Shown piece by piece: positions 2,869 to 30,202 of a stretch of DNA of 34,087 nucleotides (its first letter is position 1; each line of letters opens with the position of its first letter). The DNA is from Planoprotostelium fungivorum (Eukaryota > Evosea > Variosea > Cavosteliida > Cavosteliaceae), in contig MDYQ01000266.1 of NCBI GenBank assembly GCA_003024175.1, forward strand, positions 1 to 34,087, given 5' to 3'. Made by a program: the position numbers and the translations under genes. The notes below the pieces were generated by a model that saw nothing but the letters and a program-made list of their open reading frames with translations, made no database searches and was not told where the DNA came from.

Positions 2869-5800
2869 ATGCGGAAGTGGCTCCCTTCCATCTTGAAACT
2901 CTTGTTTCTCTCTTCTGTTCTCTCAGATGATCGAAATGGTTTGAACGGGTTTTACAGCACCGCTGGGGGTCCGAGTGGGTTATCATCTTACCCCGAATAT
3001 CCATCAGTAACATTCTCCAGCATGGAAGAATCGAATGGGCTGGACGGATAATTCAGATCCTTGCTCTTCGATGCCACCGCCTTTCGGTGTGGAATGTACG
3101 AACGGCTTCGTTTCTGCCATCAGGCTACCAAATAACACCCTCAGCGGCAACTTAAACGCTGACAAATTAGTTCACCTCCTCCTTTTGGATGTATCATCCA
3201 ATCCGATCTCCAGCATTCAATGGTCACCTCCTCTTCCCACTCGGCACTTTTTGAACGTCTCTAATTGTGACAAGCTACAACCCAAACTATTGATGGGATT
3301 GTTGGGGGGAACCATCTCTGATATGGACATCTCTTCGACTTCGGTGAATGGTGAGTCTTCTTTCCCATATTGAAATGACTTACACTCTCAGTGGGCTTAT
3401 TGGATACCCTATTAAGTCCACAGAATTTAGTCTCGCTCAACATGAGCAACACCCGCTCGATCGCGCTTTCCTCGTTCCAGCAGATCATCAACGCAACTCC
3501 ACTCCAAACTCTCATCGCGAGTCACAACAGAAAGATGTTCAATGATCTCCTCACCCCTCCCCTAGACAACATCCAATTTGGGGTGAATTCTCTACCTCAT
3601 CGTCATCTGCTGACTCTCGATCGGGCATCCCTGATCACCTTGGATCTCACCGATAACGGCCTGACCGGATGTTTATCCAACTTGAGAATTCATCCCTTCC
3701 AGACTCTCCAATTGGGTGGCAACCTCCTCACGCTGTGCCTCCCGCGCCCGATCGCACCCTTACATCCTGATCGTCTCGACGCATTGAAATTTTTAAATGT
3801 CTCGGATAATCCCAAACTCTCGGGTTCCCTCGATTTGAGTAACGCTATCCATTTAGATCACCTCTACGCGGCCCACACTGGATTACTCTCCATCAAATTC
3901 GATCTGTGTCAGGTGAGACGAATAGAATAGAATGGATGGACTGATGCAGATAGATCGAACTGAGAGCTGCATCGAGGAGTGTTGTGGTCACATCAATTGG
4001 ATTGGGCGTGGAATGTTATCGCAAAGCAACGGGTACAACTTTCTCTTGTCACACGACGAATCGATCAATCGAGGTGGATGTTATGATGGATGCATCTGAG
4101 CCCTTCTGATGGATGTAGATCGATGTGGGATTGGCTTGCTCAAATTGTGACATGGAAGAGTCTACCACATCGACGTCATCGAGTATCATCACATCCACAA
4201 CATCGAGCACTACATCGACATCGTCCAGCACCAGCAGTAGCACCACATCGAGTAGCACAACATCATCTTTGATCACAAGCAGTAGCACCACCAGTACAAT
4301 GGATACACCAACCAGTACCGTGGATGAGACCGAGAGGTGTAGGGAGAGATATCACTCCATCGAATCGAATTCCACGGATGGAAACCTGGGTGATCAGGTA
4401 TCATCATCTCATCATCTCATCATCTCATCATCTCATCATCTCATCATCTCATCATCTCATCACCTCATCACCTCATCATCTCATCACCTCATCATCTCAT
4501 CATCTCATCATCTCATCACCTCATCATCTCATTGTGAAGATGAATCGATTGACAAAGAAATAGATCCATTCGGTGGCGATGATGAACCGACACTGTGCTA
4601 ATCTCCTCGATTCTTTCTTGTGGAATGTAACATCTTCCAAATTGGGTGGAGGAGGACATTACGAATTGACATCAGATCGCCTCAACATATCTGCCTACAA
4701 GGTGATATCCTTCATCGATGCGTCCATTTCATCGATGTTCGATCACAATTGTTCTTTTCTGATGTGACGTCAGATCTCGCAGAGGAAGGATGTCGACGTG
4801 GAATGTTCCGGAAAAAGTTACGGACAGATTCCCGCCAACGTGATCCAATCGATTCCCATCAACTCCACCGTGTTGATGTCCGTCATCAACTTTGATCCGT
4901 ACACCACTGAAAACAATTTTGGGTAAGCATCAGATGATCGTGTGAGATGAAGATGTGATGACACCCATTCAGACATCCAGATATCGTCATGATGACGATC
5001 TTCAACGAGGCTGGAGAAGAGATTCCAGTGAAGGACACCGTGAGCTCGATCACCATAGGAATGAACGCAAATCAAACGGGTGAGAAACTTATGAACGACA
5101 TCGATGATGAGCTCTGATTGATGAGATGATCAGATTATAACGAATGTGTATGGTGGGATCGATCGACGAGAGGATGGAGTGCAGAGGGTTGCACGTTGAT
5201 CAGAAACGGAACGTCTCTCGTCTGCTCCTGCAATCACCTCACCAGCTTCACTCTACGAAATAATTCTACGATGAAAGATTCATCCACGACACCCAACAAT
5301 ACCAAATGTGATCCACCTCATCATCATATCATCACATCATCACATCATCACATCATCACATCATCACATCATCACATCATCACATCATCACATCATCACA
5401 TCATCACGCTGTAATGTTGATCGATGGATGTAGGGATCATCATCGGGGTCGTCATCGCCATCGTTGTTATCGTCATCGTAATCACAATCGCCGTAGTGTG
5501 CATCGTACTTCGAAGGAAGAGAGTTATGTATCAATCCATCATCACAGACGATCACCCAATGTCATTGAACGTTCAGATGGATTCGTTGCAGATGAAAGGT
5601 GAGAGAGAGAGTGGAAGAAGGTTGACGACGTGCAGAGAAATTATCGGATCATTGTGTCAAGGCGATCTACCAGGTACGGAATCGTGTGTGATGTGATGAA
5701 TTGACTCGTACAGTTGGCACCAGTTGTCATCATGAGTTTCAGGAACAAGAGAGATAGAGACGAATATGCCATGATGATGCAGGTATGTATTTATCATAGG

Positions 5801-6654
5801 TTCTAATTCTAAAGAATATCTTTTTGTGATGGACATCACCTGAGCAGATTGACAGAGAATCAAACACGTGAACGTCGTTCAATATCTGGGCAATCACGAT
5901 AGCTTCGATGGAAAGCATCACATCGTCACCAACTTCATCGAGGGAGAACTCCTCTCTGATTGGATCCATCACTCCTGGGAAATCAACGATGCCGAGCTGA
6001 TGTGAGAGATCATTCCATCCGATCAAAGTATAGGAATAGAAGACGATGAGTTGTACTGAATGAACAAGTGTCATGCAGCTGGCAGGAGTGATGGCTCATC
6101 TGTTCGATTACGATCTGGTGATGGATTCACTCTCTCTCCGTAAGATCTTGTTGCAGAAGGATTTTGAAGGGAACATTTCTATCAAACTGTGGGACTTTCG
6201 ATGTAACGATCCTCCGCTGCTCTATCAGGTGAGACACATACGAGATCTCGATCCAAAGTGACGACGCACGATCGAGTCTGAGACGCGATCCAGGCACCAG
6301 AGAGAGTGAGAGGAGAAGTGACTGAGGAGAGCGCTGTGTGGGCCTTTGGTATCGTATCCTTACAATCGATACAAGGAAGAGAGTACAACCAAGGTGAGAC
6401 ACGAGATAGATCACTCGCTCATTCTTCAGATCGAAGGTATCCGGGTGGCGGTCTCTCATCCGAATCCTCCCGATTGTCTGATACAATCACGAGATGGTGA
6501 AGGATTGTGATGACATGCGATGTTGATGGATGACAGTGTGAACGTGGATCCGCTGTCTCGACCGAGGTTCAGAGAGATCTGCAAGAATCACACGGCCCCC
6601 GTCCAGACCGTGAAATACAACCTGCTCGAAGACGACGAAGGCGCTTACAATTGA
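2869..6654 (+). CDS. LRR - Ser/Thr stalk - GAIN/GPS - TM - pseudokinase receptor
   Basis: A single-pass surface receptor. It starts with a signal peptide (MRKWLPSILKLLFLSSVLS), then an LRR N-terminal cap (GWTDNSDPCSSM...FGVEC) and leucine-rich repeats to about 3915. A Cys-rich exon and a Ser/Thr-rich mucin-like stalk follow (about 4140-4300). A GAIN-like beta-rich region runs at about 4565-5080 and ends in a GPS motif at 5137-5260 (CVWWD...GWS..GC...CSCNHLTSFTL), with the HL/T cleavage tripeptide present. One membrane helix (about 5435-5510) is followed by LRRKR. The cytoplasmic part is kinase-like (about 5620-6654; KHVNVVQYLG, APERVRG, VWAFGIVSL, DPLSRPRF). It lacks the glycine loop; the VAIK Lys is Met (VVIMSF), the HRD region reads VMDSLSLRKILL, and DFG is DFR. 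It is therefore a predicted pseudokinase. Introns at 4398 and about 5308 are swollen by TCATC repeats. The junction near 6002-6076 fits no GT-AG pair in frame, so a non-canonical intron, frameshift or read error is possible there. Confidence 0.83.
4401..4530. repeat. TCATCATC microsatellite in an intron
   Basis: About 130 bp of (TCATCATC/TCATCACC) units fill an intron of the receptor gene; the donor is GTATCATC at 4398 and a fitting acceptor is AATAG at 4562. Long Ser/His/Ile reading frames through it are artefacts of the repeat. Confidence 0.85.
5319..5407. repeat. CATCACATCAT microsatellite in an intron
   Basis: About 90 bp of near-perfect CATCATCA-type units lie between the GPS exon and the transmembrane exon of the receptor gene. 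A donor at about 5308 (GTGATCC) and an acceptor at 5433 (GATGTAG) join the flanking exons in frame, which places the repeat in an intron. Confidence 0.82.
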
Positions 6655-6727: not shown

Positions 6728-7154
6728 TTACAATTCGACGCAAGAGAGAGTGTCCCACGCTGCCTCAGAGATCTGAGTCCCCTTGGCATCGACCGTCTGG
6801 ATGTCGGGACAGAACCTCCTCACGTGTCCAACGGTGGCGTTCGTCAGCATCATGCAGGACCTGACGTTCATGTACTTTAGCTTCGGACTCTTCTCGCACA
6901 GTCTCTTGATGCCTGCATCGGTGATGGGGTTGGATGTCAGGTGGATCCGCTCGATGCTCTCGTGACTGTTGTCGGCCAGAGCGATCAATACCGCATCTCC
7001 CATCTGTCATGATTCAGTTTATTATGATGATGATGATGATGATGATGTGATGTATGTGATGATGTGATGTGATGTGAGATGATGATGATGTGATGTATGT
7101 GATGATGATGATGTGATGTGATGATGATGATGATGATGATGATGTGATGTGATG

Positions 7155-7186
<32 letters not shown>

Positions 7187-9418
7187 GATGTGATGTGATG
7201 TGATGATGCGATGACAATGTGATATTTCACCTGACAATTGGACACATCGACGATTCGAAGTCGAGTCGCTGCCGCGAATCTCGCCACACTCGCCTCGCTC
7301 AATATAAGCGGCGACAGACTGAAATTGACCTGAAACAAATCAACATCCACCTCTCCCCTCTCCCTCACCTTCTCGATCTGCGTACAACTAGAGAGGTACT
7401 CCAACGATTTAGACGTCAGCGTCTCGTGTCCCTGAAGTGATATGTTGCTCAATTTGAGACAGTACTTTGAGATGAACTGCACTGCGTTGTCCGTGAATCG
7501 ATTGTTGACTCCGTTGATGAAGTGGAATTCGAGAGAGATGAGTTGAGAGCCCAATCGCTTGATGAGGCGAGAGACTCCACGATCAGAATAGTGCTCGCTG
7601 GAGGGGAGACAGAGAGAGTGAAGTTGGCTGAGTTGGGCTAGTTCAGACAGACCTTCATCGGTGTAGAGTGTCTTCTTCGATGATTCAACGCACAGTACCT
7701 GAACGTCGTTTCACTTTCATGTTCGTCTGGTTGTGAGGGATGTGATGGATGATGGTGATGGATGATCATGTGATGGATGATGGTGCTGGATGGATGATGG
7801 TGATGGATGATCATGTGATGAATGATGTGATCACCTCCAACGATTTACAATTATCACAGATACTCTTCAGTGTGGCATCATACAACCTGGCAGCACATAT
7901 CGTGAGCGATCTGAGTGTCTTGCAATTATCAAAGATGGCCTTGGACAACTGCTGAAGCTCCTTTGAGTGGATGTGCTGTGCATCTTCTAGCAGGTGAGCC
8001 TTCTGTGCTCTGAAGCCGAGATCGATCTCGTGCAACCACTGAAAGTAATATCTAGACAACACAGAGATCAATAGACCTGTTCAAGTCAACGGAGAGCGTT
8101 GTAGATACGACACACCGTTGTCCGATCTGAATTTGAGGCAGATGTCTTGATAAGAGAGCTTCCTCCACAGGTTGGGAGAGTTGTAGACGATGTCCCTCCA
8201 CGTCCTGCAAGATTGTGCTAGGGTCAATAGATCTCTCCTCGAGATGAATCTGAAGATATGGGCCAGCATCTCGGCGGACAATCTGCGAAGAATGAATAAA
8301 ACAAATTTATGATGAATTTAAAAAGCGAAGAAGGTGAGAGATGGTGATGCAAAGATGAGAAGATGAGAAGATGGATGATGGGATGATGATCAATGAAGTA
8401 TTAATGAAAACGTGATTTCACCTCGTCATCGGGTTGGATGCGAAGGAATTGTCGTTGGACGATTCCTCTGGTGACAATTGATCAGAGGACCAAGTGTCCT
8501 GACAGAGAGAGTGGATGCTACTAGACAGCTTCTCTAACGTACCAAACTTGCTCTTGATGCCATTGACTACGGTTGTCTGCTCTTGACATAGATTCTGCAA
8601 TTGCCGAAGCTGTAATGATGTCACACGAACATTCGATTTTTATATTTGGGTATAGGATCGTGATGTGATTGGATGAGCTCGACTCACTTGTATTCTCAAG
8701 TTGTCTCTCTCCTCGGTCACGGCGTTCAATTGTTGGCTCAATGATTCAACCTGATGCCCATTCGATCACTCCATCTCAGCGGTAGACTCACCTTGGTAGA
8801 CATGGACCGAATTTGTTCCGTATAATCGTGATGGACTCTACTGCTGTAATTCGTCGGTGTTGTGTGGGCATTGATTCGACTGTCCATGAAGGGTTTCATC
8901 GGCTCGTTCCGGGGTGAAGAGTTCGTCGCTTGGCTCATGAACCGATCCAAATTCATATTTAACATCTGCGGATGATTGCCGTAATTTTCATGTTGCATTC
9001 CTGATTCTTAATGTCAGAAATGAAGATGCATGAGGGCGGAACCTTCTGGGGAACATAAAGCGTTGTTTGATAATGCCGGGTGTGAATCATGTTGATAAAA
9101 GTGGGGTACACTCTGCCCAGTCTGTTCTTGTTGGTGAATGGCATCAAACGTCTCCATCAAAAAGCTTCTGGGGTTGTGTTGGGGTTCGTGCATCTGGTTA
9201 TTATCCATTTGTTGCCGTGAGCTTGGATGATTAAACGGTCCATTCGGAGCAGATGTTCTATAATACCCAGCGTTCTGGCTCGAAGGCCCAGCCGACTTGT
9301 GAAAATGTGCATTCGGTGATGGATAATGCACTTGAGAGGCGGGCGGCGTCGGGTAGTAGTGGCGGAAGACACTGCTATCATCGGCGAACGTCCTTGACCT
9401 CTTTGGGTCGGGTTCCAT
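6728..9418 (-). CDS. F-box / leucine-rich repeat protein with coiled-coil N-terminus
   Basis: Predicted substrate receptor of an SCF-type (Skp1-cullin-F-box) ubiquitin ligase. From the start MEPDPKRSRTFADDS (ATG at 9418), about 190 residues are disordered and rich in Asn, Pro, His and Ser. A coiled coil follows (SLSQQLNAVTEERDNLRIQ, about 8690-8755), then a second helical exon at 8424-8610. The F-box is created across a splice: TR at 8422 joins LSAEMLAHIFRFISRRDL at 8285, keeping frame. AMN1-like Leu-rich repeats run to the stop, for example LRSLTICAARLYDATLKSI and IERIHLTSNPITDAGIKRL. Introns at about 7003-7234 and 7697-7836 are enlarged by ATG-rich repeats. The gene ends tail to tail with the receptor gene, 73 bp between stops. 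A long disordered plus coiled-coil region before an F-box is unusual, since FBXL proteins usually start near the F-box. An upstream non-ATG extension to 9460 is open but has no supported start. Confidence 0.82.
7022..7206. repeat. ATGATG / TGATGTGATG repeat filling an intron
   Basis: About 185 bp of mixed ATGATG and GTGATGTGATG units within an intron of the F-box/LRR gene. On the - strand the intron starts GTGAAATATC next to the exon ending VSNCQ and ends ATGACAG before MGDAVLIALAD. All three - strand frames are open and read poly-Ser, poly-His or poly-Ile, none of which is coding. Confidence 0.85.
7745..7820. repeat. 45-bp tandem duplication in an intron
   Basis: A 31-nt block beginning ATGGATGATGGTGATGG is identical at 7745-7775 and 7790-7820, giving a 45-bp period. 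It lies in an intron of the F-box/LRR gene and looks like a recent local duplication. Confidence 0.75.
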
Positions 9419-15443: not shown

Positions 15444-18400
15444 TCAGTCATCTCTTAAGAAGATGCATCCACCTTCTATCTCCAACTGTTTGTCCCTGCA
15501 GTCGTTGATATCGTGGAGCCAGTCTGTCTTTTCCATCTGTCTGGAGCAGAGGAGAGAGTAACACTTCATGGCCATGTTGATGTTGAATTGGAATGTGGCT
15601 CCACCTGATCATCATAAGTCCACGTCACACGATCATGATGATGGTGTGATGACATCATCGTGGACACTCACCCGGTGCATCCTCTATGTTGGCTACGTCG
15701 ATGACTTCAATCAGTGGTAGAGTCGCAATGAACGTCATTTTACCCTTTTTCTCATCAGATCATCTACAACGTTGTAGTTTGATCTCACCAAGAATTTTGC
15801 CGTCCTACAGATGAGAATGGAATCGTTGAAGAGGAAGGTCTTCACGTCGAACTTCTTCATCTCTTTGTCTTTCTTCATGATCAGTGTCATCATGCTCTCA
15901 CTGTTCTCTCATCAGTACAATATTCACACGTATAAACATGATGATGAAAGATAAATAGATAGACATCTTAGCTAATATCAATCCATACATGTATATATCA
16001 TCCTGATGACATCATATCATCGAAAAGATAACGAGACAGATGAGAATAAGATACGAACCGAACGAGCACACGCTGCGGCATGACAATGACGAGATCGGCA
16101 GGCTTCCCCTGTAGTGAAGCATCGATGGCAGCCAATCTCATTCCCATGTCTTCTCCCTTCTTTGCAGAGTTGACTTGTTCGGCTACGGCAGATATACTCA
16201 TGATGGCTGTCTGAAGAGGTCTGTGATCTGGATGTGATTCCGGCGTGTGGTTCAATAGATCCTGTTGATGTTTCAATGAGATGAAAACGGCGCGTTGTAG
16301 ATGAGATGACCTTGAGGAGGAGACCGTAGCGGGGGATACGCTGGATGGGTGCGATGAGAACGGAATCCAAGGGGGGTAGTTCGTTTGGATTACTCAAATT
16401 CAAACGTAAGGACTGAGTGGAGGTCAGGAGGATTTGATGTGATGTGTGATGATGAGAAGAGAAATAGATGTCGATTGTGCCACATCAACATCACGATCAT
16501 GATCACATCATGATCACATCACGATCACATCACGATCATGATCACGATCATGATCACATCACGATCGTGATCACATCACGATCGTGATCACATCATGAAG
16601 TTGAGATGCGGTGATGATGACAAACGTGACATTCGACTCACGTCTAACCAATCTTGGAATGGAGCGTGTTTCTTTGCCTTGTTGAGCAGATCGATGGACT
16701 TGTCAAAGTTTCCACTGTATTGTATGTACAATCTTAAAAATGGTGTCTACATCGCGTCAACCACAACCTCCTATATTCTACACTCACTACAGCACAGAAT
16801 ATATCTCCGCAGCAGGTTTCAAAGGTGTAATTTCCTTGCCTCCCTTTCAGCCTATCTCCCTTCAGTTCACGTGAAAAATGTTTTATTCTATTTTATTCAC
16901 GACGAATCGATGTACTCACGGCGTGAGGAGGAGTTCACTGTTGATCTTGTAGATTTCACTGATATTTCCAAATATCTCTACCACGTGCTTTTCAGTGAAT
17001 GGTTTGCCCAATACTTCGAATTTCTTTGGAAATTCGTTGATCTGGGCCATCAGCGCTGCACAGTAATTCTGTCCCACCGTTACTCCATCACTTCCCATCC
17101 ACTCACCGTCTTCGCCTTGTCTAAAACGGAGATGTAATATTCTTCCGTGCTGATGATCTCGTCGAAAATATCTTTCCTCCTCTTCTTCAATTTCTCATCC
17201 TTGTTCTCCTTCGACTCGACTTCCACATCTTTTGTCGCCTCCACCTCCGGTTGGTCTCTGTTGTCCTGGACCACTGGAGCCACCGTGGGAACTACCACTG
17301 GAGTCACCGTGGGAACTACCGCAGGAGCCGTCACGCTGGGCGCCGGTCGATTCGAATCGCCGCTGCTGGTCCTTGATCGGTTGAACGCAAAATGTCCACT
17401 GAAACTTCTCGCCTTGCCAACTGCAGCGGTGACAGCAGCGGATGGATCGTCCACGTGAAGCACGGCACCCCTCCTGCCCGTTGTAGACGAAGAAGAATTG
17501 GTGGAAACTGGCGGAGATTTCGAGTCGTCGACGATCGGAGTCTCCGCGGGATCTGGGGGTGGATCGGTCTGTGGGAGGTCACGTGATGATGGTGGAGAAG
17601 GTGTGGGAAGGGTCACCCTGGGTGTGGTGGGAGAATCTGTGGGAGTGGAGGGGGGGAGGGGGATGGGTGGGACGGAGCGGGGGGGAGGGGAGGGTAATGG
17701 CGGGAGATTCGTCTTGCGTGTCGAATCGTCTGGTGGGGTGAGATTTTATTCGATTTTATTTTGTTTTATTGTATCTCATCGTATGTCATCATGATGGAGA
17801 CTCACCTAATATGGGTTTGGCTGGAATGGCCGGTGGCTTGGTCATACCTCGTAACGTCTGTCCCAAATAAATACAAATAAAACGGCGAGAAATCGATTTT
17901 ATATCGATGGGTGAGTCATCCAATTTGGGACTCACTTGAGAACGGGCGAATGTGGGTGTAGTCGGTGAGGTAGTTGGTCGATTTGAAGGTCTAACAGGTG
18001 GTGGTGGAGGAGGTGGTCTGTTAGCTAACCGTGTCGGCGCTGTATACGATCAGACAAGATATTCAGAACGTAGGGGGTCCGTGGATCGCGAGAGGTGGAT
18101 GAGATGTCGAATGAGATGGAGGTTATCTCACGTGATGTGGTGGAAGAAGTTCCCGGGGATAGAGGTGCCTCGCTACTGCCACTGGAGGCGAGAGATGGTG
18201 AGCTCGAAACTGGAGATGTCGGTTCATCCTGAATGGAGTCAACACAGATACGAACAATGTGATGATTACCTTCTTTCCTTGTAGATACGGATTATTCTGC
18301 TTGCCATAGAACGAATTTGGAGAGCTGGGAACAGTTCTTGTTTTGTCGGCTGCATTATCAGATGTAGAGTGGCTCAATTGATTGTTCGAACCCGTTCGAG

Positions 18401-19886: not shown

Positions 19887-21108
19887 TCACCTTATCGTAA
19901 AGTAGAACGATAGAACGGGTGAAACGGGCGACTTTGCTATAATCATTCTCCTCTTATCTCCCTGCGCGTCTAAAACGATTCGATTGTTGACCGAGTGTGC
20001 CCACAGTGTCCCAAGAGCAGGTGAAACGTAGCTCTGCCCCGTCTCGTATTTCTTCGTCACTCGATTGGTCACCACGACCGGTATATCAAATATCTCTAAG
20101 AAGATGAGTCAGCGTGGGGTGGATGATGATGGTGGAGATGCATCTGATGATGGACATGTTCTCCACCTGCCAAGTTCTTGAGGAGGGCGGCTTCTTTTGA
20201 TACGGCTTCTGTTCGTTTCTCTGCGCTGTCTCCTCTCGTTTCTTTTCGAACGACGGAGGCGATGGAGTCTAAGACGATGAGCTTGATCTTGTGTTCGATG
20301 ATGGTGACTTCTAGATTTTGCAGGCTGTGTTTCTAATTCAGCGTGCGTGATGGTGGATGGTCACCTCTTGATGATGTCGGTTGATTGGAAGGATCGGATC
20401 ACTTGCACACGATTGACTAATCTCTCAATGTCTGTGGCTCCCTTGAACTCCTCTGGATATTTCTCTCTGGCCATCTCGACCAGTCTAATTTGGAGGTGAG
20501 TTTAGAAGATGGGATCATTATGTGCACCTCTCGGCGGAGAAAGCAGTCTCCGTGTCGTAATAGATGACACCTCCATCAAGACCTCCCTTATCTACAGGCA
20601 GCGTCGCGATCACAGACAACATGTGGCACATCTGCGTCTTTCCCATTCCAGCTTGTGACACGATCTGTTCGCATGTTCGGTGACAATGAAGATCAGATGG
20701 TGTACCTCTGTGACGGAACCAGATGGTATACCACCCAGAAGATGCCGATCTAAAGGATCGATCGTGCTTGCAAGGTAACCTGCTTTCCGTGATTTCGATT
20801 CCAGAATGACATCCAACTATCATCCTTTAGATAATAGCAGTATGTATATTCGTGCGTTACCGTTCTTCCCTTAAAGGTCTGACAAACGGCTCTGCTGACT
20901 GATTGTATGATCCCTCTCGCTCGGTAAATATCGACGTCCAACAGTTGAAACAATTCCCATTCAGAATATGCCAAGATGCTCTGTTCGTGTGAGTAATATC
21001 TATCTTCACCGATCAATTCACTGAATATTCAGACAGACCAAACGATATCAATTTTTGAATGATATCTTCTTCTAAACCCGCCTTGATCAGCTTTCTTTTC
21101 GATTGCAT
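19887..21108 (-). CDS. RAD51B: RAD51 paralogue RAD51B
   Basis: RecA-family ATPase of the RAD51B-C-D-XRCC2 complex, which assists RAD51 in homologous recombination. The start MQSKRKLIKAGLEEDIIQKL (ATG 21108) splices in frame to SILAYSEWELFQLLDVDIYR, the N-terminal helix-hairpin region. ASTIDPLDRHLLGGIPSGS and the Walker A segment EIVSQAGMGKTQM follow; then MLSVIATLPVDKGGLDGG and IYYDTETAFSAER, which are very close to RAD51B rather than RAD51 or RAD51C. Walker B is KIKLIVLDSIASVVRKE (about 20265). The end is GTLWAHSVNNRIVL and RRMIIAKSPVSPVLSF, with the stop at 19887. The first Gly of the usual GxxxxGKT is Ser here, while GKT is intact. About seven short introns. It is head to head with the PEBP gene, 103 bp between start codons. 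Confidence 0.92.
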
Positions 21109-22267: not shown

Positions 22268-22318
22268 GATGAGTTATTGTGGGTGTTGTGTTGATGTTGT
22301 GATGTGATGTGATGCGGT

Positions 22319-22330
22319 CCAATCAATTGG
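22319..22330. promoter_or_regulatory. Inverted CCAAT boxes in a bidirectional promoter
   Basis: CCAATCAATTGG is a CCAAT box in each direction, separated by two bases. It lies between the start codons of COX19 (-) and seryl-tRNA synthetase (+), 52 and 40 bp away. CCAAT boxes are bound by the NF-Y/HAP complex, which in yeast drives respiratory genes. A role here is inferred from sequence and position. Confidence 0.5.
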
Positions 22331-22369
22331 TCTCTCCGATCGCATCTCATCACCGTCAAATCGGCAGAT

Positions 22370-23924
22370 ATGAAGCGGCCCATCTTCTATTGGAATCAAA
22401 AGGGACATGCCTCTCTCAAGCCTGTTCCAAATCCACAGATGTTACCGTTCGAGAGGAAGTTCATGGCCGATTATAACAAGTTGAGAGAGGAGGCGGAGCT
22501 CATATCACAATCATGTCGATTAAGAGGAGTCAAGAATGCAGATGTTCACAAGGTTCTATCCCTCAATGATCAATACAGACTGCGTGGTGCACAAATCACA
22601 CAACTCAACACGGTGAAACACAATGATCCCAACAATCGAGAAGAGGCGATCAAAAAGAGAGAAACACTGTCTAAATTGGAGACGGAGAGAACAGAGGTGA
22701 GCCCACACCATGATATCACCACCACTGACCCATCCTTCAGATCGAGAAGGAGATGGTCGAAGAAGCACTCAAACTACCCAATCTCATTCATCCACACGGT
22801 GATCTCTTCGATGATGCGTTGGTTAACATTGATGTTCGATCTGATCATCAACAGTCACCCACACTGAACCGAAGCTCATCCGCACGAGCGGTGAAAAACC
22901 AAAGGGAGAGCCATTAGATCACGTGACCCTGGGCAGAGATCTAGACCTCTTCGACTTCCACCAGAGCACGAGCATCACCGCGGAAAAATTCGTCTACCTG
23001 AAGAACGAAGCCGCCATACTCGAGATGGCGCTCATCCACTGGGCCATGACATTCGTCGTCAGTCGAGGCTTCACCCCAGTCTTACCCCCTGATCTCATCC
23101 GACAGGAGGTACCTCCATCACCATGTTCTTCATCCCCATCATGCTGATCGCGATGACATCAGGTGGCGTTGGCCTGTGGATTCTCACCGAAGGGAGAGAA
23201 GGGAACAAAGAGTCACATCTACTCGATCGAAGATTCAGACCTGTGTCTGACGGGCACAGCTGAGATCCCCCTCACAGCCCTCTATGCCAATCGTGTCATA
23301 CCCGCTGAACTCTTTCCCATCAAGATGGTCGGCTTCGGTCACTGCTTTCGAATGGAGCCGGCGGCCAACAGAGGACTCTATCGTCTGGTGGATGTGTCTC
23401 TCTTCTTCTCGATCTGAATCGTTCGCCAGCATCAGTTCAGTAAGGTGGAGATGGTTAATATCTGTCTACCCGAGCAGAGCGAGAGACAATTTGAAGAGAT
23501 GTTGGACATTCAAGAGGAGTTGTACTCTCAGTTGGGGCTGCACTATCGTGTCTTAGACATGCCGCCGGACGACCTTGGAGCTCCTGCTTATAGAAAGTTT
23601 GACATCGAAGCGTGGATGCCTCACAAGCAAGACTACGGAGAGATCTCCAGCTTGTCGAATTGTACCGATTATCAGTCCAGAAGATTGGGTGAGTCATCAT
23701 CATCATCATCATCATCATCATGCTGAAGAGAGACAGCCATGAGATACAAAGATGAGAACAAGAAGAACTATTATCCTCATACACTGAACGGCACGGCTTT
23801 AGCAGTACCGAGGGTACTGCTGGCCATCATGGAGAACTGCCAGAGCGAGGGAGTCGTGCACATACCACAAGTGCTGCATCCTTATACGATGGGTTTGAAA
23901 GAGATAAAGATCAAGAGAGAGTAA
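22370..23924 (+). CDS. Seryl-tRNA synthetase
   Basis: Class II aminoacyl-tRNA synthetase that charges tRNA-Ser. From ATG 22370, a short N-terminus leads into the coiled-coil tRNA-binding arm ([14 protein letters not shown]... [19 protein letters not shown]). The class II core follows: [20 protein letters not shown], motif 1 region [17 protein letters not shown], serine-pocket [14 protein letters not shown], and motif 2 [17 protein letters not shown] with [11 protein letters not shown] from the next exon. Then come [36 protein letters not shown] and motif 3 [19 protein letters not shown]. It ends at TAA 23922-23924. The compact form with this motif 2 resembles bacterial and mitochondrial SerRS, so an organellar enzyme is likely, but the targeting peptide is not obvious. 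Introns include one with an (ATC)n tract at 23694-23721. The promoter is shared with COX19. Confidence 0.95.
23694..23721. repeat. (ATC)n microsatellite in an intron
   Basis: About nine ATC triplets just after the donor at 23689 of the last intron of the seryl-tRNA synthetase gene. Confidence 0.8.
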
Positions 23925-26351: not shown

Positions 26352-29300
26352 ATGTGGGCAGCCACGCTCATCGTCTTCGGACTCGTGGGGCTGTGGGGTG
26401 CTACGGTCGCTCAAGATAGTCCATATGCGACTTCTCCTTCTCGTGAGTGGGGGATTTGATTTGAGAGATTGATATGGGGCAGTTTTGTGTGAATATACGA
26501 CATTAAATTCCAGTCAAGGGACTCTGGCAGATCATATCGGTGAGCTGGTTCTTCGGCACGATTCGTCTCTGATGGGACGACAGCACCGGCCAGCGGCTAC
26601 ATTCCTTACATGAGTTGCAGTTGGACTCTTTCTCCTCCTTCGAATTATACAACAGTCGTCTTTGAGTTCGCCCATCTCGACACAGAATATCTCTATGGTA
26701 ATCATCGTCCCATCTTCCCATCTGACTGCGACAAAGATTTCGTACAGATATACAAGAACTCGAGCAACACATCCGTGTTATCCTTCTCAGGCACCCAAGT
26801 ACGTCCATCTCTTCGCCATCATCTCACTGTCAACAGAAGCCCTCTTCACCCATCGTGGTCTCTCTCAATTCGTCCGATCAGCTGTCGGTGACGTTCACCT
26901 CTGATATAGACATCTGTGGTTCCGGCTTCAACTTGAACTACTGGATTGGTGGACACATCTTCCACTTCTTTCTGCTGATGAATGCACAGACACCTGTAAT
27001 CCCACTTGTGGAACGCGAGGAAAATGTGTGAACGACACGTGCAGTTGTTTCCCTGGCTGGGAGATCGGCAGTGCTGGTTCATGCAGCAACCGCACCTGTC
27101 AGAACACCAATGGATGTAACGGTCACGGCGTCTGCAGCGTCGACACTTGTATCTGGTGAGACATCTCACCATGATGTCTCGACGTTGAACGATAGTAGCA
27201 CCCCAGGCTGGTCCGGCGACGACTGCTCGACACGTGAGACGTTCCGTCATGATATCATAATGACATCCCACAGCCTATTCATCGGGAAATTATTACCTCA
27301 CCGCTCCCAGTGGAACCATCAGTAGCAATCAATACGCCGGAACATTGAACGGTGAGAATCAATGCTCCGAACGAGAGCGTGATTCTCTACAGATCACACG
27401 ATTCACATCGATGTACCCAGTCAAGATAACACGACCACCCTGACTGTCTTCACTTTCGATCGCGTCGACATCAGCGGCTCGTCTTCTCTGTCCCTCTACG
27501 ATGGCTCGCAGAAGGTAAGGTCACGTGACCTAACCTCCCTGACTCGTTGTAGATCGCTTCCGTGGGGTCCGTCGTGAAGGCTGTAGATAGAAGGACGTAC
27601 ACTCTGTACAGCAACAACATCACTCTCTCTCTCACTGGATCTACCAATCGAGTTTCGTTCGATGGTTATTCCTTTGATTATGAAACGAGTGAGATAGATG
27701 AAAGGAAGGATGCTGATGTAGACAGTCTTCTGTCATTGTTCGAGCACTCAAGGCTTCTGCACTGTATCTGGTGTCTGTCAGTGCTTACCTGGTTGGACTG
27801 GGTTGAATTGCACGACAGGTGCTATATTTCGATCTTCATACTTTTCTTCTCACCCACAACAGTTGACGCTGCACCGAATGGATGTTGGAATGCGTACAAC
27901 CACAGCTCCAGTAATACCACGTGTCAGTGCATGAACGGCTGGAGTGGTGTAGACTGTTCTCAATGCCTCGGCAGTCAATGCAGTGGTGGTACGTACATCC
28001 AACACACGAGTACTCATCCCCTCACAGGTTGCTCCAATTCCATGACGACAGACGAGAACATTTTGGTTTCGGCAGGCTCGACGTGCAGTCGTTCTCAGTG
28101 GAGCATCACAACGAACAAGACCTCCATCGTGCTGCTATCTTCTATCTCACAATTTGTGGGACAAGATGGGGTTAGATCAGCGTTTTGTTCGTTCGAAACT
28201 GACGCGTTGTAGATCACCACGAGAGATTCGAAGGGCTATTATCATAATTATCAGAGCACAAACATTCCACCCCAAGTTCTGAATGGAGCATCTACCATCA
28301 CCGTGACCAATTCGAACAACTCGACATACAACGGACAATACTTTTCCAGTGAGTTGACCGATTGATTTTCTATCTGAATGGTCTTCCAGTCAGCTGTCTA
28401 AATAACTGCTCGAACAAGGGCACTTGTCTTCCCAACGGAGACCCTCAGAAAATATCTGGAAGTTGTTCGTGTGCGGCAGATTACAGTGGAACGGACTGCT
28501 CCAACAGTCAGTGAAATCTTATCGAAATTTCATCGAGATCTCATTATCACAGACGTCTGCACGAACAACTGTGGAGACGGAAAGTGCTTCAACAACACGT
28601 GTCAGTGTGATCAGTACTGGGGCAGTGACTGCACTCAGAGTGAGCCGTCTTCCTTTCTCTCTTCCTGACCCGATCTTCAGCCTACTGCAGTGGACTGAAG
28701 ACAATCAACGTCTCTGACAATCTACCACACGTCATCAAGGATCATTATGAGGGTGATTCGTCCAGGCTGAGTTTCAGTTGCTCGTGGAATTTCGACTCGA
28801 TTGAGGTGGTTTCCATGGTTTACACTCGTCTGGGTCTACCTCAAGTTGGATTTTTGAATATTGAAACGGCTCCTCAGAATGTCATACGGGGCAGTTGTGA
28901 GTCGACGTCGACGTCTGTTCGGAGTTAAACCCTAAACCTTGTACAGACGGTGGTCTGCCCCTGCCCGCCAATATTCCCGCCAATTCTACCTTGAGCTTTG
29001 GGACGGTGGGTAATGTCAGTCCATTCACAGGCTTCACTGCCACCGTCCAGAAGCTGAGCGCTTGTCCAAATCGTTGCAGTCAGCGAGGTGTCTGTTATCT
29101 CTCTACTTGCAGCTGCAACCCCGGTCACCATGGCAACGACTGTTCACAGAGGATAGACATCAACTCTCTACCTGTATCTTACCCCAACGACACGGTGAGA
29201 GTGAAGAGGAGAGAAGAGGTTGACCTCGTGGACAGATGTATTTTGTTGGAGTGGAGATGCAGTGGAGCTTCTATGTCATGGACTTGTCGATGTATACTGG

Positions 29301-30202
29301 AGCGGATATGGCAATGTTCGAATACCAGATCACTAGCGGTAGATATCCACCCATCCTCTTGTTCAATCCATACGAGGTATTCATTCGATCGGTTCATTCT
29401 ATCTGCGTTGTAGATGACTGATACTGAACAGAACGGAATTCCTGATTATACGAACAATATCGGAATCAGATCGGGAGATTATTTGGCAGACTACATCTCT
29501 CCCGGAAGGTATCCATTTTATTTCATTTTATTCTATTTTATTCTCTTCTGACACGCAGAAGGTTCATATTGGGTGTATTCGGTCCCCCCAACGGACAATC
29601 GACCAACATCTCCATTCAGATCATAGGTAAGGTCCATCTACAACCAGCCATCTCATTCAAACGAAACAGCCACTTGCCGCAACGACTGTGGTGCTGGAAT
29701 CTGTAACCTAGACGACGGTACTTGCATCTGCGGTGAGATCTCTACGATATTTAGAGGAAATGATTGGGAACAGACGTGTGTTATTCTGGGGCAGTGTGTG
29801 ACGAGTACGTCTGTCAAATGAGCACCGACAATGGTTTCGTGAAGGTCAGCTGACTTCATCATCATGTCTCGCATGGAGATTCATGTCATCTTCATCACGA
29901 TGATGGACTGATGTCCTATCAGGTGCTCGTGGTCATCTTGGTCATCATCGTGGTGTTGATCGCCATCGCATTCTTTGTGGGCATATCAGCCATCCTCTAT
30001 CGAGTATGGTGAGTCGTCACTGCGATGTCCATGTTGATGGTGATGTCTGATGAGAATGAATAGGAAGAGGAAACAAGAGCAGGGAGGAAGGAGAGCACCG
30101 ACGCAGGGATCGTCATCAGAAAGGTTGAGACATGAGATGGTTCAGTTGGACGTGATACCTGCGGAGGATTCAGATGCAGAGAGGAGACCCTCCCTCCCAT
30201 GA
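26352..30202 (+). CDS. CUB/EGF-repeat single-pass transmembrane adhesion protein
   Basis: A type I surface protein. The start MWAATLIVFGLVGLWGATVAQ (ATG 26352) is a clear signal peptide. A CUB-like domain follows (YIPYMSCSWTLSPPSNYTTV, VFEFAHLDTEYLYG, FVQIYKNSSNTSVLSFSGT). Then come about eight EGF-like modules interspersed with further CUB-like or beta-sandwich segments: CGTRGKCVNDTCSCFPGW, CNGHGVCSVDTCICTPGWSG, CTVSGVCQCLPGWTG, CQCMNGWSGVDCS, CLNNCSNKGTCL, CGDGKCFNNTCQCDQYW, CSQRGVCYLSTCSCNPGHHG and CRNDCGAGICNLDDGTC. A strong membrane helix (VLVVILVIIVVLIAIAFFVG, about 29931-29990) is followed by a basic stop-transfer sequence and a 40-residue tail ending RRPSLP. Many N-glycosylation sites. 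Relatives in amoebae act in adhesion or phagocytosis; no ligand can be inferred. About 25 introns. Confidence 0.84.

Follow-up and report, generated by a model that had tools for sequence, protein, structure and literature searches.

What does a GAIN domain, with its GPS cleavage motif, do in a receptor that has no seven-helix bundle to act upon? The question is raised by a gene at positions 2869 to 6654 of a 34,087-base contig (the window, i.e., the whole stretch of DNA analyzed) from Planoprotostelium fungivorum, a fungus-eating amoeba (Amoebozoa, Variosea, Cavosteliida). While passing through the secretory pathway, GAIN domains cut themselves at HL^S/T; the two halves then stay associated until ligand or force parts them. 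Nearly all work on these modules has been done on seven-helix receptors and polycystins, and how much weight falls to a tethered agonist and how much to separation of the halves is debated. A sequence-only reading of the window gene had placed GAIN/GPS above one membrane helix and a pseudokinase, with no G protein-coupled receptor (GPCR). The gene model, Pfam, a profile search and fold comparison bore this out; the observation is confirmed, its interpretation is supported, and we regard the architecture and the family that shares it as nearly certain. Going beyond that reading, we find that the window gene belongs to a large family of receptors present in P. fungivorum and its relatives, and that its layout is common in the P. 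fungivorum genome.

Hand-splicing on the plus strand, where all features of the gene lie, gave 17 exons, all joined at GT-AG sites, with introns of 36-166 bases each and a single open frame of 928 amino acids from ATG at 2869 to TGA at 6654. The exons are located at 2869-2974, 3021-3350, 3392-3912, 3954-4073, 4119-4397 and 4564-4701 (exons 1-6), 4774-4922, 4973-5079, 5134-5307, 5434-5598, 5636-5673 and 5714-5782 (exons 7-12), and 5856-6001, 6069-6228, 6294-6393, 6430-6496 and 6537-6654 (exons 13-17).

All elements originally named occur in the predicted order and places, the signal peptide and the leucine-rich repeats (LRRs) being the least firmly shown. The signal peptide (amino acids 1-19, 2869-2925) was judged by eye. 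It is followed by an LRR-type ectodomain with an LRR N-cap-like start (amino acids 20-376, exons 1-5, 2926-4169), assigned by counting a relaxed LRR pattern: nine occurrences in the first 380 residues, of which one is inside the signal peptide; shuffled sequences average 1.15, and none of 2000 shuffles reached nine. The only Pfam LRR match in the protein, LRR_4, stayed under its cut-off (E 0.14); a sibling protein, P0020, does have a Pfam LRR. Next comes a Ser/Thr-rich stalk, recognized by composition (amino acids 377-427, 4170-4322; Ser and Thr make up 70% of residues 377-440), whose counterpart in P0020 (residues 285-459) has pLDDT < 50.

The GAIN domain, including the GPS, spans amino acids 428-627 (exons 5-9, 4323-5264). 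The Pfam GAIN profile PF16489, proposed as a check, did not match the 928-residue protein at E<=1, but the domain was confirmed by another profile search and by fold comparison. It was folded separately, because a structure comparison with the whole P0020 model had returned kinases alone among the best 50 entries. Within it, the GPS (amino acids 587-623, 5142-5252) did match PF01825, with 46.2 bits and E 6.5e-12 against a cut-off of 22.5 (50.6 bits in a six-frame search). The predicted self-cleavage point HL^T falls between Leu619 and Thr620 (HLT at amino acids 618-620; 5238-5243), and the receptor very probably undergoes GAIN cleavage. About 22 residues beyond Thr620 lies a single transmembrane helix (amino acids 643-667, 5436-5510), marked by a Kyte-Doolittle peak of 3.71 at residue 648, the sole peak over 1.5 (the next highest, at residue 780, is 1.43), and by a helix at the matching place in the P0020 model. 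Pfam at E<=1 found no 7tm_2 domain in the protein, and no PKD, REJ, PLAT or channel domain. Genome searches with PF16489 and 7tm_2 (PF00002) gave no matches, and since control genomes were equally silent, no absence is claimed from them.

On the other side of the membrane, a kinase-like domain extends over exons 11-17 to amino acid 906 (5636-6585). The tyrosine kinase profile PK_Tyr_Ser-Thr (PF07714) matched residues 726-906 with 39 bits (cut-off 23.1), whereas the general Pkinase profile (PF00069) remained slightly below its cut-off (30.4 versus 31.7 bits). The best PDB sequence matches were JAK1 entries 4l01 and 4l00, which we take to contain the JH2 pseudokinase (E 2.5e-7), followed by weaker matches to a LysM receptor kinase, IRAK4 and Abl; overall, the domain is nearest to tyrosine kinases and not to plant receptor-like kinases. 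Its VAIK lysine is replaced by Met716 (VVIM, 5732-5734), the HRD motif reads Met-Asp-Ser with Ser801 at the catalytic aspartate (6121-6129), and DFG reads Asp-Phe-Arg (LWDFR, 6193-6201); the last motif was taken from alignment A2, its row being shifted in automatic alignments. In addition, the Asn after HRD is Lys and the Gly-rich loop is absent, while APE is retained. With Met, Ser and Asp at the triad positions this is not the pattern of an active receptor tyrosine kinase; a single-pass protein with at least one catalytic residue lost has the layout of a receptor pseudokinase, and judged by its residues the domain is apparently a dead tyrosine-kinase-type pseudokinase.

How widely this layout is used was assessed by a whole-genome GPS search. 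It gave 150 matches, all over the curated cut-off, and as 150 of 176 candidates were scored the number is a lower bound. These places are not a count of genes, since near-identical copies lie on separate contigs (C1:310224 and C196:42487; C120:17360 and C5:24593) and may be assembly duplicates; they may represent recent duplication or haplotype contigs. Over a third of the matches (59/150) lie less than 10 kb from another, with clusters on C1, C196, C335, C351, C58, C110 and other contigs. When the coordinates of genome matches to PF07714 and to seven kinases of the family were compared with these places, the matches listed put a kinase 250-1800 nucleotides downstream on the same strand at 123 of the 150, and two loci that were read directly raise this to 125. 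At control positions, kinase matches were found 1 time in 150 upstream on the same strand, 3 times downstream on the opposite strand and never upstream on the opposite strand.

We read 33 GPS loci, including the window; the sample was not random, comprising the top of the list, nine of the ten weakest and a few others. The GPS is followed by a kinase-like domain in 32 of them, as judged with a profile built on ten kinases, either annotated or derived from transcripts, at least one of which (P0013) probably represents, from its motif, a read locus in annotated form. The remaining locus, C196:626, runs off its contig, with a kinase exon visible at C196:6-137. Ten predicted downstream pieces submitted to Pfam all scored over the PF07714 cut-off. 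Conversely, 32 of 36 genome matches to the window kinase are GPS-linked; this query detects kinase exons at 16 GPS places, the window among them, and HRD is lost and LWDF or LWDL is present in all ten whose motifs could be resolved. A de novo spliced-gene predictor mis-spliced window exons 14-15 and 17, so its locus models were trusted near the GPS, membrane helix and kinase core alone and were used for kinase presence and core motifs. The cleavage tripeptide is HLT in 30 and HVS in 3 of the 33 loci; it is also HLT in all 26 proteins of the set used for the tail analysis below, where it was located by a pattern demanding H, then L/V/I, then T/S/C. While GAIN, membrane helix and kinase are constant, ectodomains vary among relatives: they are of a beta-helix type (PF02415 or PF13229) in P0009, P0011, P0124 and P0125, Kelch in P0002 and LRR in P0020 and others.

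These data bear on whether the GAIN and kinase parts might be separate adjacent genes that annotation has fused. The annotation does fuse neighbors: the public protein P0001 (1216 amino acids) has the hand-spliced exons with two differences, of which the first is an unrelated upstream open reading frame joined on its N-terminal side, without any Pfam match at E<=1. In the second, intron 6394-6429 is retained as coding and most of exon 16 is omitted. Around that exon, hand-splicing yields RLSDTITRCVNVDPLSRPRFREI, which can be aligned, weakly when taken alone, with the last part of the 4l01 JAK1 domain; the hand-spliced C-lobe piece SRLSDTITRCVNVDPLSRPRFREI scores 13.9 bits alone against that domain end, within the whole JAK1 match given above. 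Both the upstream fusion and the mis-splice in the kinase C-lobe look like annotation errors. The public name of the gene is 'YadA/hemagluttinin like protein'. However, splicing of the window gene is frame-consistent through the transmembrane exon, the kinase follows the GPS at five in every six places, and proteins derived from transcripts contain both parts, so that two separate genes are scarcely credible.

The transcripts in question come from relatives. In protein searches (3 proteins; best 120 of 146; best 120 of 507), every protein among the matches listed that has Pfam GPS and kinase domains is either from P. fungivorum or a EukProt TRINITY transcript. The EukProt proteins P0005, P0007, P0008, P0009, P0011, P0123, P0124 and P0125 have GPS and kinase in one open reading frame and, being transcript-derived, put the joined layout on single mRNAs. 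A search for this architecture in other amoebozoan genomes had been proposed as a check, and a GPS segment failing to match PF01825, or transcripts dividing the two parts between mRNAs, had been named as outcomes that would overturn the reading; neither occurred, the transcripts that join the parts being those of relatives. Because candidates needed shared exact words and a set length range, the searches show no absence from other organisms. No P. fungivorum protein among the matches listed is more than 33% identical to P0005, which is therefore taken as belonging to another species. Having a GPS and the full Lys/Asp/Asp triad, P0005, P0011, P0123, P0124 and P0125 are possible active GAIN-coupled receptor tyrosine kinases.

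In P. fungivorum itself, none of 19 annotated GPS-kinases (17 with Pfam GPS; P0026 and P0031 by motif only) has the full triad. It is present in five of the seven relatives from EukProt and in 19 of 23 controls, kinases that lack a GPS (Fisher, with kinship ignored, 3.2e-4 and 2.1e-8, respectively). Among the 19, which include the fragment P0113 with gaps at two of the three positions, the Lys is kept in 17, the HxD Asp in 3 and the DFG Asp in 1. Likewise, none of the 24 read loci resolved at both Asp positions retains both, although at these positions C224 and C135 appear to be mis-spliced. In trees, the kinases linked to a GPS group as a single clade (support 0.99 with 27 tips in FastTree; ultrafast bootstrap 77 with 26 tips in IQ-TREE), as would fit one fusion event with catalysis lost afterwards. 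It could be argued that the window domain still catalyzes through an unusual mechanism, like some kinases first called dead: its clade has full-triad members, the lysine is widely kept and the window protein preserves DF of DFG. Yet in that protein the lysine of VAIK, the aspartate of HRD and the Gly-rich loop are all missing at once, and with the triad complete in none of the annotated members of the species that were examined, we consider residual catalysis quite improbable.

A decoy or pseudogene, decaying from an active receptor kinase, would also show lost catalytic motifs, a missing Gly-rich loop and degenerate LRRs. Such decay is very improbable indeed, given one open frame over 17 exons with intact splice sites, the retained tail tyrosine and the motif pattern shared among the GPS places found with the window kinase. 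It also sits poorly with the rates of amino-acid (dN) and silent (dS) change in the pseudokinase core of the window clade, where dN/dS is 0/0.085, 0.0098/0.204 (two pairs), 0.020/0.089 and 0.0043/0.079 in near copies. So few amino-acid changes relative to silent ones suggest that selection maintains the dead domain.

If catalysis is lost, the output may lie in the C-terminus. The window protein ends in an acidic tail with a tyrosine (...NLLEDDEGAYN, Tyr927; 6607-6651), and a tyrosine occurs in the last 15 residues of 24 of 26 GPS-kinases, a set that omits P0004 and P0014 (duplicates), P0008 (isoform) and P0056 (fusion), where 36% would be expected (p 3.6e-9). It is the sole strongly enriched residue of the twenty in the tail, with D, E and P at p ~0.03. 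In the three 15-residue windows before the tail, 5, 2 and 5 of the 26 proteins have a tyrosine, and among the other fetched proteins 67 of 206 have one in the tail. Acidic residues make up 26% of positions -4 to -1 of the tail tyrosine versus 9% overall. Four window-clade loci outside this set, read directly, end in DPYSQIHI, DPYSQVNMME, DPYSQIQM and SPYFGSDYM; five motifs were tried, one was not found in frame, and two of the four loci are near copies. The context at the last tyrosine is often D-P-Y or acidic-x-Y, which to our knowledge matches no described motif. Potential readers are present, the genome having 79 SH2 exon matches; for three other amoebozoans, 18, 15 and 48 SH2 proteins were reported (PMC4758236).

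Elsewhere in the window, CATCATCT- or GATGATGT-like repeats make up introns 4398-4563 and 5308-5433 and the intergenic stretch 7020-7220. CUB-like (21.3 bits, cut-off 21.4) and Teneurin-type EGF-like exons on the plus strand at 26544-26891 and 28901-29413 probably represent another surface protein gene. Exons matching RhoGEF (16017-16484, minus strand), Rad51 (20518-20826, minus) and seryl-tRNA synthetase (22313-23726, plus; the Seryl_tRNA_N match is slightly below its cut-off) are ordinary neighbors.

How, then, might such a receptor work? An outer recognition module, made of LRRs in the window protein and beta-helix-like or Kelch in others, would stand on a flexible stalk. GAIN would cut itself at HL^T, the halves remaining non-covalently joined, and binding or pulling of the ectodomain would alter or remove the GAIN half. 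Because there is no seven-helix bundle and the cut lies so close to one helix, the tethered-agonist route is unavailable, and we therefore propose that the signal arises by release or reclustering of single helices, which would rearrange the attached pseudokinases. The pseudokinase, derived from a tyrosine kinase, would serve as an allosteric scaffold; phosphorylation of the tyrosine in the acidic C-terminus would fall to a putative active tyrosine kinase that partners it, and SH2 proteins might bind there. We consider it reasonably probable that the protein is an adhesion receptor that cleaves itself, leaving in the membrane a stub that serves as a pseudokinase scaffold and has a phosphotyrosine tail. 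That the tail, rather than catalysis, provides the output, a step beyond the earlier proposal, seems to us evenly balanced. As for the trigger, force or shedding is possible at somewhat less than even chances, and we infer adhesion-triggered shedding of the ectodomain, as originally suggested, on this footing. Alternatively, cleavage could be constitutive processing into a stable heterodimer, without a signaling role, with ligand-induced clustering as in an ordinary receptor pseudokinase. The short stub has no seven-helix pocket to enter, and certain adhesion GPCRs signal without cleavage; against this, the cleavage tripeptide is conserved at the read loci, although it could also be kept for folding. 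We regard constitutive processing as less likely than the scaffold reading above.

Several points weigh against this interpretation. At 25 of the 150 GPS places the coordinate searches found no kinase, which does not by itself show its absence. Support for where the GPS clade branches among the tyrosine kinases is low (0.13, 0.60). The selection estimate draws on five near-copy pairs of 100-111 codons each; C335_13872 and two C196_26027 pairs dropped out through misfits of end motif or length. The tail test was framed after nine proteins had been inspected (among the 17 unseen before it, 16 have the tyrosine, p 1.1e-6). A weaker leaning toward a tail tyrosine is also seen in related amoebozoan-type kinases that lack GPS (9/12, p 0.01), so the tendency is not specific to the GAIN class. 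Phosphorylation of the tail is inferred from the residue and its acidic context, and both the partner kinase and the SH2 reader are putative.

Comparison with known systems places the receptor between several classes. It shares the GAIN domain and a GPS with HL^S/T with adhesion GPCRs (ADGR), in which the strand freed by the GAIN cut enters the seven-helix bundle, but it has one helix and a tyrosine-kinase-type pseudokinase in place of seven helices. Polycystin-1/PKD1-like and sea urchin REJ proteins, which are not classical GPCRs either, also have GAIN/GPS; polycystin-1 is, however, eleven-pass, whereas the window protein is single-pass and matched none of the polycystin-type domains searched for. 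A dead tyrosine-kinase-type domain is common to the window protein, the JAK pseudokinase domain, PTK7 and HER3, the latter two being receptor pseudokinases of the tyrosine kinase group; we know of no GAIN/GPS in animal receptors of the PTK7/HER3 type. LRR receptor kinases of plants and protists have an LRR-like ectodomain, a single helix and a kinase-like domain in common with it, but the window protein differs in having GAIN/GPS between stalk and membrane and in its tyrosine kinase affinity. ADGRD1, a GAIN receptor, interacts with PTK7 between neighboring cells in animals (PMC13197933); there the modules are on proteins of two cells, while here both kinds are in one chain. Seven-transmembrane (7TM)-kinase fusions occur in oomycetes, amoebozoa and choanoflagellates (PMC12716839) and likewise join receptor and kinase, but through seven helices. 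The excerpted text of a 2026 review (PMC13197933), which reports up to 41 adhesion GPCRs in one species of choanoflagellate and regards polycystin-1 as an atypical relative, makes no mention of a GAIN-kinase receptor, and that of PMC9198077 has nothing on GPS. Among the titles and abstract openings surveyed, a scope outside which the species genome paper falls (Hillmann 2018, cited in PMC10445921), none joins GAIN/GPS with a kinase output in amoebozoa.

A single-helix GAIN pseudokinase receptor cannot use the standard pocket; it therefore isolates the other proposed mechanism and makes it testable. Since GPS places number at least 150, and a kinase-like domain lies downstream at 125 of these, the GAIN module is heavily used outside the animal lineage, with another output. 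This bears on the origins of GAIN use: the GAIN-7TM fusion has been placed in stem holozoans, with both domains in other genes elsewhere (PMC12716839), and a survey that included P. fungivorum reported no GAIN domain on amoebozoan family-2 GPCRs (PMC10445921), while GPS is abundant in this genome. The loss of catalysis across the examined P. fungivorum members, together with apparently active EukProt relatives, offers a natural series from receptor kinase to scaffold. Tentatively, we propose that a separate class of GAIN receptors arose in protosteliid amoebae, equal in number to any described GAIN repertoire, in which the module drives a tyrosine-kinase-derived scaffold and not a GPCR. Almost all of the class would be without catalysis in P. 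fungivorum, its output being one acidic C-terminal phosphotyrosine read by SH2 proteins, and GAIN cleavage may be a general, portable switch or force sensor that is not specific to GPCRs.

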